Positions 41,440 through 59,612 of a stretch of 64,000 nt of DNA are shown piece by piece. The notes beneath the pieces were generated by a model. It had not been told where the DNA came from and searched no databases. It saw nothing but the letters and a program-made list of their open reading frames with translations. Position 1 is the stretch's first letter. Each line of letters begins with the position of its first letter. Position numbers and translations under genes: made by a program. The stretch covers positions 186,001-250,000 of the forward strand of contig JACJGO010000006.1 in assembly GCA_014163555.1 (NCBI GenBank), given 5' to 3'. This DNA is from Flavisolibacter longurius (GTDB lineage: Bacteria; Bacteroidota; Bacteroidia; Chitinophagales; Chitinophagaceae).

Positions 41440-41540
41440 AAAAACGGGGTTAAGGAAGACTAAGTTAGGTTTTTACAGATAGCGTTCCTCCTTTTTAACA
41501 TACGCCGGCCGTCTTTTTTTGGCGGGAAGCGGTCGGTGCG

Positions 41541-41600
41541 GACGGACCTGCTTCACAGGCGCAGGCCTGTTATCCTAGAGTTTGATGACACTGCGCATGG
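41541..41600 (+). repeat. Dispersed repeat, copy A (degenerate)
   Basis: GACGGACCTGC, then TTCACAGGCGC and TATCCTAGAG-TTTGATGACACT, recognisably the core of copies F and G but with several mismatches. It is the only copy not at a gene 3' end. Confidence 0.5.
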
Positions 41601-41750
41601 TTGGGCGTATCCTGTTTCTTTTGGGAGAGGACGGCTGTCAGGATTAGCCAGCCCCTGGTACGGGCGGGGAAACCAGGTTTATTCCCGGTACGGATTTCCC
41701 CTTATTCCCGGAAAAAACACCTGTGCACCGCTGTCAAGAAAGGCACCGCA

Positions 41751-45481: not shown

Positions 45482-45530
45482 GGCTACCGGTGATTGGTAA
45501 ACGTTTTTTCGTTGTTCACTTCTTTTTCAT

Positions 45531-45665
45531 GGCAGGTTGTAGTTTGACCTTGCAGCCCGAACGATTACTCTATTTGGCAAGACGCTACAGGTTCGATAGG
45601 CAGACCTGGTTTACGAACGCAGACCAGCTATCCTATAAATTGAAGAACACTTCGGATAGCAGGGT
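45531..45665 (+). repeat. Dispersed repeat, copy B
   Basis: About 135 bases, 50 bases after the lipoprotein stop: left part TTGTAGTTTGACCTTGCAGC, middle GGCAAGACGC, right core TCCTATAAATTGAAGAACAC and GGATAGCAGGG. Aligns end to end with copy E. Confidence 0.75.
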
Positions 45666-45733
45666 TTGTTCCCTCTCTCCTTCAACACAACCAAGGCATA
45701 CGTTTTGTTTCTCTTCACGCCTAATTCTTTTCC

Positions 45734-48996: not shown

Positions 48997-49308
48997 CGGC
49001 ACGGTTTTGAAGGCAGGCTACCTGTCTCTTACCAAAGCAGCAGGACAGGCGCTTCACCCTTAATCAGTACGAACTATGATCATGTGTTGTGGCCTGTCCT
49101 TTTTTCTTTTCCTGGAACAGGATAATCGCAGTGGAAAGTGTCGACAGGTAGGTAGTGCTGTGCGTTGATGGCTTTAGGCAGAGGACCTGTTGTTGGTGGG
49201 CTGGCACTCTAAGCCAGGCCGTACACCAACAAAGGCAGCATCCTATACGTTGAACCACACCACGGATAGGTAGGGGCGGTTGTTGCCGTTAGTGAGCCCC
49301 TTTCTTCC
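48997..49308. other. Gene-free interval containing repeat copy C
   Basis: 312 bases between the 86-residue gene and the convergent VOC gene. The right half is repeat copy C (49171-49298); the left half holds nothing recognised. Confidence 0.4.
49171..49298 (+). repeat. Dispersed repeat, copy C
   Basis: GAGGACCTG, an internal hairpin with arms TTGTTGGTG (49190-49198) and CACCAACAA (49224-49232), then CATCCTATACGTTGAACCAC and CGGATAGGTAGGGGCGGTTG. It lies at the 3' end of the VOC gene, 10 bases from its stop. Confidence 0.7.
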
Positions 49309-52071: not shown

Positions 52072-52153
52072 GCCCTACCCTGACAAACAGCGAACCGAAA
52101 AGTTCGGGGATTTATACAAAAAGAAGCGGAGGTGATTGAGGTCCATAGCCCTG

Positions 52154-52254
52154 TGAGTTGTAGTTATAGACAAGAGGCTGCTATGAGACAGTCCTGCGTC
52201 GCAGACACAGGTACGCAATGCTATAGCTTAACGAACACTACGGATAGCAAGGGA
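52154..52254 (+). repeat. Dispersed repeat, copy D
   Basis: TGAGTTGTAGTTATAGAC, then CAGTCCTGCGTCGCAGACAC and AACACTACGGATAGCAAGGGA, ending 2 bases before the stop codon of the serine hydrolase (3' side). Confidence 0.7.
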
Positions 52255-52256
52255 CT

Positions 52257-53585
52257 TTACAGTTTTTTCATCCCCGTTTCCATCCCGTTACGAACGAGCC
52301 GCAACCCTTTGGCCTCACCGCTGTCATTCCGCAAGACATACAGCTGTGTATCAGGACCCTCATCCAGAAAAAACGCATCCGTCGCAAACTGTTTCCACTC
52401 CGTCAGGCGGCTTCCGGTTTGGGTCCACAGCCTGCCGTCTTTTACCAGGAGCACAAAGGGACGCAGGCCCACTTCGTAGCGACCGACCACCGCTTCCAGT
52501 CCGGTTGCGGTTGTGGGTATAGCGGTGTATTTTTTGGGCAGTTCAACCGGTTGGTTCAGGTAAATACCCGCCAATGCATACGCCATGTTTACAAATGGTG
52601 AAGCGCCACCACCATTGCTTAGCACAATCACATGCAGATCGCTTTGCGGGAAATACAGCGCATAATTAGCAAACCCCGGGTAGCTGCCCGTGTGGTAAAT
52701 CAGCTTTTGCCCGTGTACCGAATCGATCCAGAACCCGAAACCGTATTTACCCAGGCCCGGCGTAATCATTTGGCGATAACGGTCAGCGCTGACCACTTTT
52801 CCGCCGTGCAAGGCCTGTTGCCAGCGGTGAAGATCGGCAGCGGTTGACACCATGTTGCCGGCGCTGAACAGCACTTCAGGCGCATACGGCAGGGCCGGCA
52901 TCCACCTGCCTGCTCTTCGTTCGTAGCCGGTTGCCAGTTGGGGCAACAGCGTATCGCTACGGTCGGGCATTGTGCGGTTTAGCCCGAGGCGCTGCACCAT
53001 GTTGGTTACGGCAACATGGAAGGGCTGACCAGTCACCTTTTCTGCTATGCTTCCCAAGAGGACATACGCCGGGTTGCTGTACCAGAAATCCCTGCCGGGT
53101 GAAAACCGCAAGACGTTGTGTTGAAAGAGTGTGATCACCGAATCGGGCGGCACCGCACGGCCTACAAGGGCCAGGAATTGCGGTGAGCCTTCGTTGATGC
53201 TGCCCAGTCCGGATGTGTGGTTGAGCATTGTCCGCAACGTGATGCTGTCGGCTTTGGGAAGGGCCGGAAACCATTGGCTTAACCGATCCTCCAGCGACAG
53301 CCTGCCCGCATCGGCCAGTTGTAAAATAAGTGCAGCGGTAAATTGTTTCGTCAGCGATCCAATCTTAAAACGGGTATCCGGCGCAGTGGGAATGTTCCAC
53401 CGGCGGTCGGCCGTGCCAAATGCTTTTTGATAAACAACGGTGGGTCCTTTGGCGACCAAGACAACGCCGGAAAACTGGTAGAACGATGCCTGTGCGGTGC
53501 AATAGGCATCCATCTTTTTTTGATTAGCCGACTGGCCGAAAGAGAGCTGTGTGATGACCAACAGCGGCAGGAAAAACTTTCTCAT
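52257..53585 (-). CDS. Secreted serine hydrolase (class C beta-lactamase family)
   Basis: A 442-residue penicillin-binding-like serine hydrolase. Signal peptide MRKFFLPLLVITQLSFGQ sets the start at 53585. Catalytic Ser77 and Lys80 in GSLTK, Tyr in FWYSNPAY and the HTG (KTG-like) in YHTGSYPG. A C-terminal extension of about 100 residues is a beta domain common to this group. It acts on peptides or esters in the periplasm; true beta-lactamase activity is not established. Confidence 0.9.
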   Translation of the reverse strand: MRKFFLPLLVITQLSFGQSANQKKMDAYCTAQASFYQFSGVVLVAKGPTVVYQKAFGTADRRWNIPTAPDTRFKIGSLTKQFTAALILQLADAGRLSLEDRLSQWFPALPKADSITLRTMLNHTSGLGSINEGSPQFLALVGRAVPPDSVITLFQHNVLRFSPGRDFWYSNPAYVLLGSIAEKVTGQPFHVAVTNMVQRLGLNRTMPDRSDTLLPQLATGYERRAGRWMPALPYAPEVLFSAGNMVSTAADLHRWQQALHGGKVVSADRYRQMITPGLGKYGFGFWIDSVHGQKLIYHTGSYPGFANYALYFPQSDLHVIVLSNGGGASPFVNMAYALAGIYLNQPVELPKKYTAIPTTATGLEAVVGRYEVGLRPFVLLVKDGRLWTQTGSRLTEWKQFATDAFFLDEGPDTQLYVLRNDSGEAKGLRLVRNGMETGMKKL

Positions 53586-53710: not shown

Positions 53711-53944
53711 CTACGCCGTTTGCGCTTCTGCCGGTTGTTGGGCAGGAAATTTTGAAATGTCCATATAAAAAACTTCCCAGGTGTGGCCGTCAAAATCTTC
53801 AATGGTGCGTTGTTGCATAAAGCCATAGTCCCGCATCTCGGTTGGTTCGGTGCCACCGGCGGCCAGTCCAGCCTCCATGATGCTGGCCACTTCGTCCACG
53901 CTGTCAAGCGACAGGGCGAAAAGCCCGGCGCCTCTGCAATTGCA
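53711..53944 (-). pseudogene. 5'-truncated VOC protein remnant
   Basis: The frame reads FALSLDSVDEVASIMEAG, then PTEMRDYGFMQQRTIEDFDG and HTWEVFYMDISKFP, the C-terminal half of a VOC/glyoxalase family protein. The preceding N-terminal half (about 65 residues) is missing and a stop lies at 53945-53947, directly before the M24 peptidase start at 53958. A deletion or rearrangement joined the remnant to the peptidase's 5' region. Confidence 0.7.
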
Positions 53945-53957
53945 TTACATTCGCTAT

Positions 53958-55295
53958 ATGCGGTTCCTCTTCCTCCTTCTCCTTTTTTTCTCTCTTACGG
54001 ACCTCCATGCCCAGGTGCTTTCGCCCCGCGAACAGGCGCGGGTGGTCGATGAAATTCTTGCCGACCGGATCAACCATTTGTTGCCCGGCCTGATGGACCG
54101 GGCGGGTATTGATATGTGGGTTATCATCAGTCGCGAGTACAACGAAGACCCGGTGATCAAAACCTTTTTGCCCGCTACCTGGTTGTCGGCCCGCCGCCGT
54201 ACGATACTCGTGTTTTATCGTGATGCGAAAAAGGGCCTGTTTGAAAAGCTGGCGGTGGCCCGTTACAATGTGGGCACCGCCATTCAGTCGGCCTGGAACC
54301 CGGAGAAGCAACCCGACCAATGGAAAGCGTTGGTCGATATCATCACCAGCCGCAACCCGCAAAAGATCGGGCTTAATTTTTCCGCCGACTTTGGCCATGC
54401 CGATGGCCTTACCCATACCGAGTACACCGAACTGCTGCAGCACCTGCCGGCCGCAGAAAAAAGAAAGATCACCTCGGCCGAAAAGCTGGCGGTAAGCTGG
54501 CTGGAAACCCGCACCAGCCGGGAAATGCAGGTTTACCCAAGCCTGGTGCAGCTAACGCACAGCCTCATTGCGGAGGCTTTCTCCGAAAAGGTCATTACAC
54601 CGGGCATCACCACCACCGATGATGTGGTGTGGTGGTTCCGGCAACGGTTTGCCCAACTGGGGCTGGCCACCTGGTTTCATCCTTCGGTGGACGTGCAGCG
54701 CTCCGACAGCCTGTCGGCCGAACACCTGCGCAGCTTTGCGGCCAGGCCGGCCGACCAGGTGATTCAGCCCGGCGACCTGCTGCACTGCGATGTAGGCATT
54801 ACCTACCTGCGCCTCAACACCGATGTTCAGCAGCACGCCTATGTATTGCGTCCCGGCGAAACCGCTGTACCCGCATCGATTGGGGCGGCCATGACGGCTG
54901 CCCGCCGGCTGCAGGACTTTTTAACAGGGCAGTTCCGCAACGGCGCTACCGGTAACCAGCTCCTTGCCGGCGCTTTACAGGAAGCAAAAGCGGCCGGCAT
55001 CCGTCCCAGCATTTACACCCACCCCCTGGGGTTGCACGGCCACGCCGCCGGGCCTACCATTGGCCTGTGGGACCAACAGGGCGGTGTGCCCGGCCCCGGC
55101 GATTACCCGCTTTATTCCAACACGGCGTACAGCATTGAGCTGAATGCCACCACCTATATTCCCGAATGGAAAAAAGACGCCCGTATCATGCTGGAAGAAG
55201 ACGGCTTTTGGGATGGCAAAACGTTTCGCTATATCAGCGGCCGCCAAAAAAACATCTACACCATTCCGCGATTAACGACGGCAATAAGTGAGTGA
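53958..55295 (+). CDS. Secreted M24 family metallopeptidase (Xaa-Pro aminopeptidase-like)
   Basis: A 445-residue exopeptidase of pita-bread fold. The signal peptide MRFLFLLLLFFSLTDLHAQ starts at 53958; the frame is open further upstream but that part is antisense to the VOC remnant. Metal-binding positions are visible: LHCDVGITYLRLNTDVQQH (two Asp), HPLGLHGHAAGPTIG (His), SIELNATTY (Glu) and MLEEDGFW (Glu). It should remove N-terminal residues before proline, using two divalent metals. Repeat copy E follows its stop. Confidence 0.9.
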   Translation: MRFLFLLLLFFSLTDLHAQVLSPREQARVVDEILADRINHLLPGLMDRAGIDMWVIISREYNEDPVIKTFLPATWLSARRRTILVFYRDAKKGLFEKLAVARYNVGTAIQSAWNPEKQPDQWKALVDIITSRNPQKIGLNFSADFGHADGLTHTEYTELLQHLPAAEKRKITSAEKLAVSWLETRTSREMQVYPSLVQLTHSLIAEAFSEKVITPGITTTDDVVWWFRQRFAQLGLATWFHPSVDVQRSDSLSAEHLRSFAARPADQVIQPGDLLHCDVGITYLRLNTDVQQHAYVLRPGETAVPASIGAAMTAARRLQDFLTGQFRNGATGNQLLAGALQEAKAAGIRPSIYTHPLGLHGHAAGPTIGLWDQQGGVPGPGDYPLYSNTAYSIELNATTYIPEWKKDARIMLEEDGFWDGKTFRYISGRQKNIYTIPRLTTAISE

Positions 55296-55302
55296 TGGGG
55301 AG

Positions 55303-55468
55303 GGCCGTAGTTTGGGCCTATGGCCCGAACTAAGCCTTGGCAAGATGCGGCAGGTACGGACGGGCTTGAGGCAAAGACGCAGGCTAGCATTCCTATAATT
55401 TGAAGAACACACTGCCGTTGTTGGTGTTGAGGCGAGGCTTTGTAGCCTCAGCCTACCAACAACACCAG
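55303..55468 (+). repeat. Dispersed repeat, copy E, with REP-like hairpin
   Basis: Left part GGCCGTAGTTTGGGCCTATG, middle GGCAAGATGCGGCAGGTACG, core TTCCTATAATTTGAAGAACA. It then carries a hairpin with arms GTTGTTGGT (55417-55425) and ACCAACAAC (55455-55463) and an inner GAGGC/GCCTC stem. It lies between the M24 stop and the RAYT start, 25 bases from the latter. Confidence 0.8.
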
Positions 55469-55493
55469 TGATAAGCTTTACCTTTCATCAAGC

Positions 55494-56012
55494 ATGTCCG
55501 CCATCATCACGGAATATCCTCACTTCTTTACCGCCACTTGTCTTGAGTGGAAGAAGCTATTGGCGCCTGATAAGTATAAAAACATTCTTATCGACAGCCT
55601 GCGCTTTTTGGTAAAAGACGAGCGAGTGATGGTGTATGGTTTTGTCATCATGCCTAATCATATTCACGTGGTGTGGCACCTGAAGGCTGGTCGCAAACGT
55701 CCAGAGGTGCAACGTGACTTTTTAAAGTTTACGGCGCAGCGAATCAAAGAAGACTTGACAAAACATCATCCGGCCGTCTTACAGCAGTTTCGGGTAGAGG
55801 CAAAGGACAGGCAGTACCAGTTTTGGGAGAGAAATCCTTTATCCGTGGAACTTTGGACCGAAAAGGTAGTGCTGCAAAAGTTGAAATACATTCACCTGAA
55901 TCCGGTAAGGGCAGGGCTTTGCCGGTGGCCGGATGAATACAAGTATTCATCCGCTCTTTTTTACCATACCGGTGTTGACAACTGGGGATTTCTGACACAC
56001 CTGCGGGATTAG
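55494..56012 (+). CDS. REP-associated tyrosine transposase (RAYT), intact
   Basis: A 172-residue Y1-type transposase. HUH motif in VIMPNHIHVVW (residues about 51-61), the QFWERNPLSVELW segment, and the Tyr-bearing helix LKYIHLNPVRAGL with following DEYKYSSALF. RAYTs cut and move REP palindromes as single strands. Repeats E and F flank this pair of genes. The start MSAIITEYPHFFTAT matches its subfamily. It is convergent with the truncated RAYT and overlaps its end. Confidence 0.92.
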   Translation: MSAIITEYPHFFTATCLEWKKLLAPDKYKNILIDSLRFLVKDERVMVYGFVIMPNHIHVVWHLKAGRKRPEVQRDFLKFTAQRIKEDLTKHHPAVLQQFRVEAKDRQYQFWERNPLSVELWTEKVVLQKLKYIHLNPVRAGLCRWPDEYKYSSALFYHTGVDNWGFLTHLRD

Positions 56013-56441
56013 GCTCCCGGTCAATTGGTATGTTTTGTTTCGGCCATTGGCTTCGCCTGCTTGTAGAAAGATGCGCAGCATCCAGGCCTTCCGGCTTTCC
56101 TGCGCATTGGCCTGGATGGCTGTTATAATTTGCTTCGACGTAAACTTTTTAAAATCGCGAAGAATGTCGGAAAGGTTGTTTTCATGAGCCGATGCCAGTA
56201 AATGAACATGGTTGCTCATGATGCACCAGGCATGCAGCACGAGGCCTTTTTGCTGCTGGCAGTGCCGAAGACTATCAATAAGCATATCGCGGTAGGCTTT
56301 GCGGGTAAAGACATCTACCCACTCCACCACGGCAAAGGTGATGAAGTGAATGGCTTGCTGATTTCTGATTTTGTAGCCGCCGATGCGTATGGTTGTTTTG
56401 GTTGCTACCTTAAACTTATCACTTTCTGGTAGAAGAAACAA
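55947..56441 (-). pseudogene. REP-associated tyrosine transposase, 3'-truncated
   Basis: A 164-residue frame whose first 137 residues match a second RAYT subfamily: IHFITFAVVEWVDVFTRKAY, HUH motif MSNHVHLLASAHENN, DFKKFTSKQIITAI. At KTYQ (near 56030) the homology stops; the expected FWQQ...KYIH..NP helix with the catalytic Tyr is absent and replaced by unrelated residues read antisense to the intact RAYT. It should be inactive. Confidence 0.75.
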
Positions 56442-56486
56442 TACGCCGGATAAGCCGGTAATGACTGATTTTGGTTTAGGATGGCT

Positions 56487-56614
56487 GGCCGTAGTTTAGG
56501 CCTACGGCCCGAGCTATTAGTTGCTTTTTACAGGATGCTGTTGTTACAACGGACCTGCGTCACAGACTGGGGCCAGCAATCCTAAAGATTTAAGAACACT
56601 ACGGATAGCAGGGG
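56487..56614 (+). repeat. Dispersed repeat, copy F
   Basis: A perfect 8-bp stem GGCCGTAG/CTACGGCC (56487-56509), middle GGATGCTGTTGTTAC, then core GGACCTGCGTCACAGACTGG, AATCCTAAAGATTTAAGAA and CACTACGGATAGCAGGGG. It lies 5' of the truncated RAYT and 3' of the VIT transporter. Confidence 0.85.
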
Positions 56615-58021: not shown

Positions 58022-58050
58022 AGTCCGTTTTCCTGCGTATTCGGAATGCT

Positions 58051-58259
58051 GGCCCTAGTTTAGGCTTACGGCCCGTAGTACTGCCTGTATTTTGCATGGT
58101 AAGATGCTGTAGTTACGGACGGACCTGCGTCACAGACTGGGGCTAGGAATCCTAAAGATTGAAGAACACTACGGATAGCAGGGGCGGTTGCCCCGGTTCT
58201 GCATCGGGTTGTTGGTGCAGGTATATACAGAAGAGGGAAAGAGCACCAACAATGGCGGA
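58051..58259 (+). repeat. Dispersed repeat, copy G, with second hairpin module
   Basis: Left part GGCCCTAGTTTAGGCTTACG, core GGACCTGCGTCACAGACTGG, AATCCTAAAGATTGAAGAAC and ACTACGGATAGCAGGGGCGG. It is followed by a hairpin TTGTTGGTGC (58209-58218) / GCACCAACAA (58243-58252), a 10-bp perfect stem. Most complete copy; it lies 29 bases after the lipoprotein stop. Confidence 0.85.
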
Positions 58260-59171: not shown

Positions 59172-59492
59172 ATGACCATAAAAGAAAAAATTTTATCTAC
59201 GTTCAAAGGGAAAGAAGGCAGAACATTTAAGCCGCATGAAATTATAGATTTGATAAAACAGAAGTATCCTGATACAAATCCTTCGAGCATCATTCCTGCT
59301 GACCGCTGTTATAATAAAATAAATATAGGAATTGAAAAATATTTTGACTTTCATGTTTTTGAAGCACTAGATGATGGTTCATATAAATTCTTAGGTGAAG
59401 AAAAACCGTTTACTGGATACATAAAATGGAAGGGAAGAATTGTTGGCGAGTGGTTAGATGGTAAAATCGTTTGGCTGAAGAAGTTACAATAA
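59172..59492 (+). CDS. A+T-rich hypothetical protein (106 aa), winged-helix-like N-terminus
   Basis: A 106-residue cytosolic protein. The N-terminal 60 residues (MTIKEKILSTFKGK ... KYPDTNPSSIIPADR) look like a small winged-helix (HTH) unit, with a beta-rich C-terminus ending YIKWKGRIVGEWL. The family is found in accessory regions and is uncharacterised. Base composition matches the gene at 58332. Repeat copy H follows directly. Confidence 0.7.
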   Translation: MTIKEKILSTFKGKEGRTFKPHEIIDLIKQKYPDTNPSSIIPADRCYNKINIGIEKYFDFHVFEALDDGSYKFLGEEKPFTGYIKWKGRIVGEWLDGKIVWLKKLQ

Positions 59493-59495
59493 CAA

Positions 59496-59556
59496 AGCCT
59501 GAGTCACAGACCAGGGCCAGCAGGCTTACCGTTTGAGAAGTACTGTGGATAGCGGG
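59496..59556 (+). repeat. Dispersed repeat, copy H (short)
   Basis: AGCCTGAGTCACAGACCAGG, then GCTTACCGTTTGAGAAGTAC and TGGATAGCGGG, immediately after the stop at 59492. Shorter and more diverged than F and G. Confidence 0.65.
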
Positions 59557-59563
59557 AATAGCA

Positions 59564-59590
59564 AGGGCCCGGGTAGAATACCCGGGCCCT
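59564..59590. terminator. Perfect 10-bp GC hairpin
   Basis: AGGGCCCGGG/CCCGGGCCCT with a 7-base loop between the convergent genes at 59172 and 59613. No T-run; probable bidirectional terminator or part of repeat H. Confidence 0.5.
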
Positions 59591-59612
59591 GGTGTCATCT
59601 GCGTACAAAGGC

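Follow-up and report, generated by a model that had tools for sequence, protein, structure and literature searches.

A convergent RAYT gene pair, probably left from the fusion of two RAYT/REP units, in a Flavisolibacter-like member of the Chitinophagaceae

The window (the whole stretch of 64,000 nucleotides that was analysed) contains two convergent open reading frames situated between two repeat copies, E and F (Table 1). As claimed in the preliminary description, both genes are RAYTs, of two subfamilies (~35% identical) lying side by side, and the spacing given there is also accurate: the palindrome of copy E ends ~24 nt upstream of the first gene, RAYT1 (25 bases had been stated), and copy F starts ~45 nt from the TTG of the second one. 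RAYT1 scores 88.3 bits against the NCBIfam family REP_Tyr_transpos (cut-off, 80 bits), and no other RAYT of the window genome exceeds this cut-off. Its product carries the motifs NHIH and YIHLNP; the AlphaFold2 model (pLDDT 93) has as its top PDB match 4er8, the structure of a RAYT in complex with a REP hairpin (E 3e-9). With the HxH motif, the catalytic tyrosine within YIxxNP and a model closest to 4er8, RAYT1 is predicted to adopt the Y1 HUH fold. The frame of the second gene, RAYT2', reaches 68.8 bits, below the same cut-off, and exceeds that of Pfam Y1_Tnp; the intact RAYT2 of F. longurius (genome G014; L043:9435-9989, 184 aa) scores 102.4 bits. RAYT2' is 91% identical to residues 1-123 of the latter protein, keeps NHVH and has lost the YIHxNP tyrosine motif, while the last ~25 codons of its frame are antisense RAYT1 sequence. 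This minus-strand gene is a pseudogene.

Table 1. Coordinates of the RAYT genes, repeat copies and junction (window numbering).
Feature	Position	Strand	Remarks
RAYT1, intact REP-associated tyrosine transposase	55494..56012	+	172 aa; HIH and YIHLNP motifs
RAYT2', pseudogene of a truncated RAYT	56022..56390	-	residues 1-123 of 184; no Tyr motif; ATG -> ATA
Open frame holding RAYT2'	56441-55947	-	164 aa, TTG start
Junction, RAYT1 3' flank fused to RAYT2	56021..56023		inverted downstream REP2 of F. longurius begins exactly here
Copy E, REP1 doublet part	55290..55410	+	left REP 55290-55327 (+), right REP 55362-55399 (-)
REP2 hairpin, upstream REP of RAYT1	55412..55469	+	TTGTTGGT..ACCAACAA core 55418-55462
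Copy F, REP1 doublet and tail, upstream of RAYT2'	56473..56614	+	left REP 56473-56510 (+), right REP 56551-56588 (-)
Copy A, REP1 family	41480..41611	+	
Copy B, REP1 family	45521..45670	+	
Copy D, REP1 family	52123..52258	+	
Copy G, REP1 family, then REP2-like hairpin	58037..58189	+	
Copy H, REP1 family	59428..59563	+	clear in right half only
REP2-type hairpin	49190..49232		
REP2-type hairpin	58209..58252		

Comparison of the sequences distinguishes two unrelated REP families at this locus. REP1 is the ~138-nt repeat (model R1) of copies A-H, which were initially lettered A-I. Its unit resolves into an inverted REP pair, the left REP on the plus and the right one on the minus strand, with a common head and hairpin (TTATAGGATTGCTGG followed by a GC-rich stem) in opposite orientation; such a doublet is REPIN-like, its two inverted REPs forming one repeated unit. 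Since the automatic structure of R1 (6 pairs) missed the first hairpin, a second model, R2, was built on single REPs. Among 28 REPs from six genomes (including the window genome, G003, G006, G008 and G014, several REPs per genome), 86% of the stem cells pair, both sides are changed in 7 of 10 pairs, and the covariation score was reached by none of 500 shuffles, a figure to be read as support and not as a probability, because the REP sequences are related. REP2 is the hairpin TTGTTGGTG...CACCAACAA, members of which occur in G015 as pairs ~94 nt apart. Copy E, previously taken for a single repeat copy, does contain a REP1 doublet; its 3' part, however, is the unrelated REP2 hairpin, which reads CTGCCGTTGTTGGTG...TACCAACAACACCAGTG and differs from REP1. 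The hairpin foot is GCTGG in REP1 and YGCC in REP2, and the GT[AG]G tetranucleotide of canonical GTAG-type REPs is absent from the foot of both. The repeats far exceed what chance would give: dinucleotide-shuffled sequence yielded 0 matches to either repeat core. A single repeat family was considered and ruled out, REP1 and REP2 being unrelated and paired with different genes.

In the 5.66-Mb window genome, the seven REP1 units that are clear are all confined to 18 kb and share one orientation; exact REP2-type hairpins number four, each located inside this stretch or at most 7 kb from it. Both families have copies away from the RAYT genes, as is expected of cognate REPs. At the locus itself RAYT1 has REP2 on its 5' side only, and RAYT2' has REP1 on its 5' side only. 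Directly after copy H there is a strong perfect GC hairpin, GGGCCCGGGTA..TACCCGGGCCC (59565-59592), possibly a terminator. Conserved and covarying hairpins between genes might also be expected of structured RNAs or terminators, retained for a role in the neighbouring genes; we regard this as very improbable for the repeats, which gave no Rfam match within the window, carry their common head and hairpin in both orientations, as REPs do, and occur at RAYT2 flanks in several species. A secondary effect of the repeats on transcripts is nevertheless conceivable.

The pairing of enzymes with repeats was assessed from the flanks of 53 RAYT loci, 33 of the RAYT1 subfamily (from Flavisolibacter, Taibaiella, Rufibacter, Arcicella, Mucilaginibacter, Cesiribacter and others; one of them, L066, duplicates L010) and 20 of the RAYT2 subfamily. 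The REP2 hairpin (TTGTTGG..CCAACAA) flanks 27 of the 33 RAYT1-subfamily loci across Bacteroidota, being present on both sides in 22, and the best-aligned pairs are mostly inverted; the RAYT1 of F. longurius (protein 97% identical) likewise has inverted REP2 on both sides. The same hairpin was found in the flanks of none of the 20 RAYT2-subfamily loci, most of which bear other inverted hairpins. Matches to R2 adjoin RAYT2 in both G014 and G006. A RAYT2 relative absent from the R2 training set (L079, 58% identity) carries one match on either side, in inverted orientation (E 0.006 and 0.004). L009 is the sole RAYT1 locus of those searched with R2 matches, which lie 1.7 kb upstream of the gene and, as a weak match (E 0.02), ~70 nt beyond its 3' end; this weak match counts against strict pairing. 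A candidate counter-example, the RAYT2-like gene of G021 with one TTGTTGG hairpin nearby, was rejected: the gene is flanked by its own inverted repeats, whose centres (GTTTGCAAC/GTTTGTAAC) are as in REP1. Near F. longurius RAYT loci (L043:7946-8060; L009, ~2820-2910) there is also a further, third type of repeat, CCCGTTGGCGTCCCC..CCAACGGG or the like. The association of RAYTs with REPs proposed earlier is real, and flank position in relatives pairs REP2 with RAYT1 and REP1 with RAYT2.

This bears directly on the earlier suggestion that the A-H repeats may depend on the intact enzyme, the 55494 protein, in other words, that RAYT1 mobilises or maintains them. Copy E ends near RAYT1, the family is clustered around this gene, and RAYT1 and REP1 occur together in the window genome, G014 and G003. 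Yet the part of copy E closest to RAYT1 is REP2, a different hairpin from the shared family, and it is this different hairpin that flanks the relatives of RAYT1. The search of the genomes' contigs points the same way. REP1 copies number 16 in G006 (several contigs of which end in or close to REP1, so that its true copy number may differ), 9 in the window genome, 6 each in G014 and G008, and 4 (two of them weak) in G003, with a few single weak matches in other genomes. G006, a Flavisolibacter congener with the highest count, has an intact RAYT2 (81% identical) and no RAYT1, while no REP1 was found in the RAYT1-bearing G010, G020, G023 and G029; the comparison of relatives with and without the enzyme, proposed at the outset as a check, thus goes against RAYT1. 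REP2-type hairpins are present in at least three copies (3-49) in every one of the eight genomes whose RAYT1 is 54% identical or more, and three or more occur in 6 of the 50 remaining genomes. There are discrepancies on both sides: G008 and G003 contain REP1 without a close RAYT2, and G021 (20) and G012 (4) contain REP2-type hairpins with no RAYT1 orthologue found, possibly as orphan families. Such repeats may be leftovers, yet they weaken a strict rule. The counts support the RAYT-REP pairing and are no proof of it, because the genomes are related, a close RAYT2 is present in three only (in one of them truncated), and part of the training set of R2 came from the very genomes counted. On the whole, it is improbable that RAYT1 serves the A-H family; since REP2 pairs with RAYT1 and REP1 with RAYT2, REP1 seems to be independent of the 55494 protein, and the earlier reading most likely attributed the family to the wrong enzyme.

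Comparison with F. longurius allows the junction between the two genes to be placed. In that organism RAYT1 is followed by GGCTCCGGGTCA and then by the foot of the inverted REP2 (GTTGTTGG); in the window it is followed by GGCTCCCGGTCA and then by ATTGGTATG, which is RAYT2 sequence. The downstream REP2 from the hairpin foot onward and the 3' third of RAYT2 are missing. Because RAYT2 and copy F are found at the syntenic place in F. longurius, from which RAYT1 is absent, the present place of RAYT1 is probably the result of a later event. The successive invasions suggested earlier, with RAYT2 resident and RAYT1 arriving afterwards, are therefore supported by this synteny and by the junction that cuts RAYT2, though not proven.

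The surroundings have been rearranged as well. The blocks VIT-ORF and M24-RAYT1 stand in another order and at another locus in F. longurius, where (L045:6034-10505) two direct RAYT1 copies, one of them a frameshifted pseudogene and each with REP2 on both sides, enclose VIT-ORF-REP1-M24; the order in the window is a permutation of this. The region 38456-67912 (window numbering, extending past the window end), which contains all the repeats, is variable: between conserved flanks it measures ~29 kb, against ~7 kb for its counterpart in F. longurius (G014:C44). Identity to F. longurius at fourfold sites is 85-91% for M24, RAYT1 and RAYT2' (91% for the M24 peptidase gene, 53904-55295, and 85% for RAYT1) against 41-64% for backbone genes, and because of this difference the three pieces have probably been exchanged between species recently. 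It is tempting to consider the REP copies as joints for moving blocks of host genes: a RAYT1/REP2 unit would have carried M24 between species and been re-joined at REP copies, yielding both the permuted order and a RAYT2 cut at the foot of the REP2 hairpin. We consider this scenario improbable; if it were true, RAYTs would be linked to the movement of host genes. The altered block order and the layout of the seven units, which share an orientation over 18 kb at one locus and recur every one or two genes, could also recall an integron-like array with the repeats as cassette-recombination sites. This is extremely improbable, as each unit consists of two separate, mutually inverted hairpins (a REP doublet) and not of one long attC-like palindrome, reading the ORFs of the downstream 20 kb by eye revealed no integrase (IntI), and REP1 is scattered over contigs in G006, G008 and G014.

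Taken together, the data are best explained if two RAYT/REP units (REPtrons) of a Flavisolibacter-like member of the Chitinophagaceae have been fused and survive here as remnants, the 138-nt family being the REPIN-like family of RAYT2 and not of RAYT1; we assign this reading a probability of roughly 0.8. The first unit would comprise the intact RAYT1 and, 5' of the gene, its own REP2, while the inverted REP2 of the 3' side is missing; the second one would comprise RAYT2, broken at the junction with the first, and, 5' of this gene, its own REP1 doublet (copy F). By analogy with the known class, each enzyme would bind its own hairpin as single-stranded DNA, and would nick and rejoin beside it, seeding new copies near the gene. 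RAYT1 presumably does not act on REP1; with RAYT2 broken, the REP1 copies would no longer be renewed and would decay. The family indeed looks orphaned, because its enzyme is broken, its copies have diverged and all of them lie in one 18-kb cluster. The locus offers a natural test of whether a RAYT sustains its own REP family only, with an intact RAYT1/REP2 and a broken RAYT2 whose REP1 remains, to be set against G006 with its intact RAYT2 and no RAYT1.

The name REPtrons denotes RAYT/TnpAREP genes that have inverted REPs at their flanks (Nunvar 2010, PMC2817692; Quentin 2018, PMC6006769). The units described here resemble them in the HUH/Tyr protein, in one REP family per enzyme, in the inverted REPs that stand beside the gene in relatives, in REP copies elsewhere, and in the accumulation of REPs near the gene, which is seen in some genomes and for which there is a precedent (PMC2817692). 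They differ in that REP1 and REP2 lack the GTAG/GTGG head (GCTGG and YGCC, respectively, stand instead), and in that here two units have been joined, with one of the enzymes broken and a flanking REP lost. Subclass 2.6 of Quentin (Bertels group 5) is found mostly in Bacteroidetes, with the motifs NH[LIV]H, WQ and YIH[QN]NP and no GT[AG]G in the flanking structures (PMC6006769). The Bacteroidota host, the NH[LIV]H and YIHxNP motifs (in many relatives) and the flanking structures without GT[AG]G agree with this subclass, whereas the W motif is FWER in RAYT1 and FWRQ in RAYT2 instead of WQ, and the tyrosine motif of RAYT1 is YIHLNP; Bacteroidota RAYTs of subclass 2.6 with non-GTAG REPs would be the nearest. 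As in REPINs or BIMEs (Bertels and Rainey 2011, PMC3116915), two inverted REPs make one repeated unit, here a REP1 doublet of ~140 nt; unlike them, the copies are few (at most tens in these genomes) and form one local cluster in the window genome. We found no description of these repeats in Chitinophagaceae in open-access papers. One RAYT subfamily has a REP hairpin common to it across several Bacteroidota genera, another has a non-GTAG REP doublet, and the locus is a new, though unremarkable, case within a class of bacterial repeat systems that is already known.
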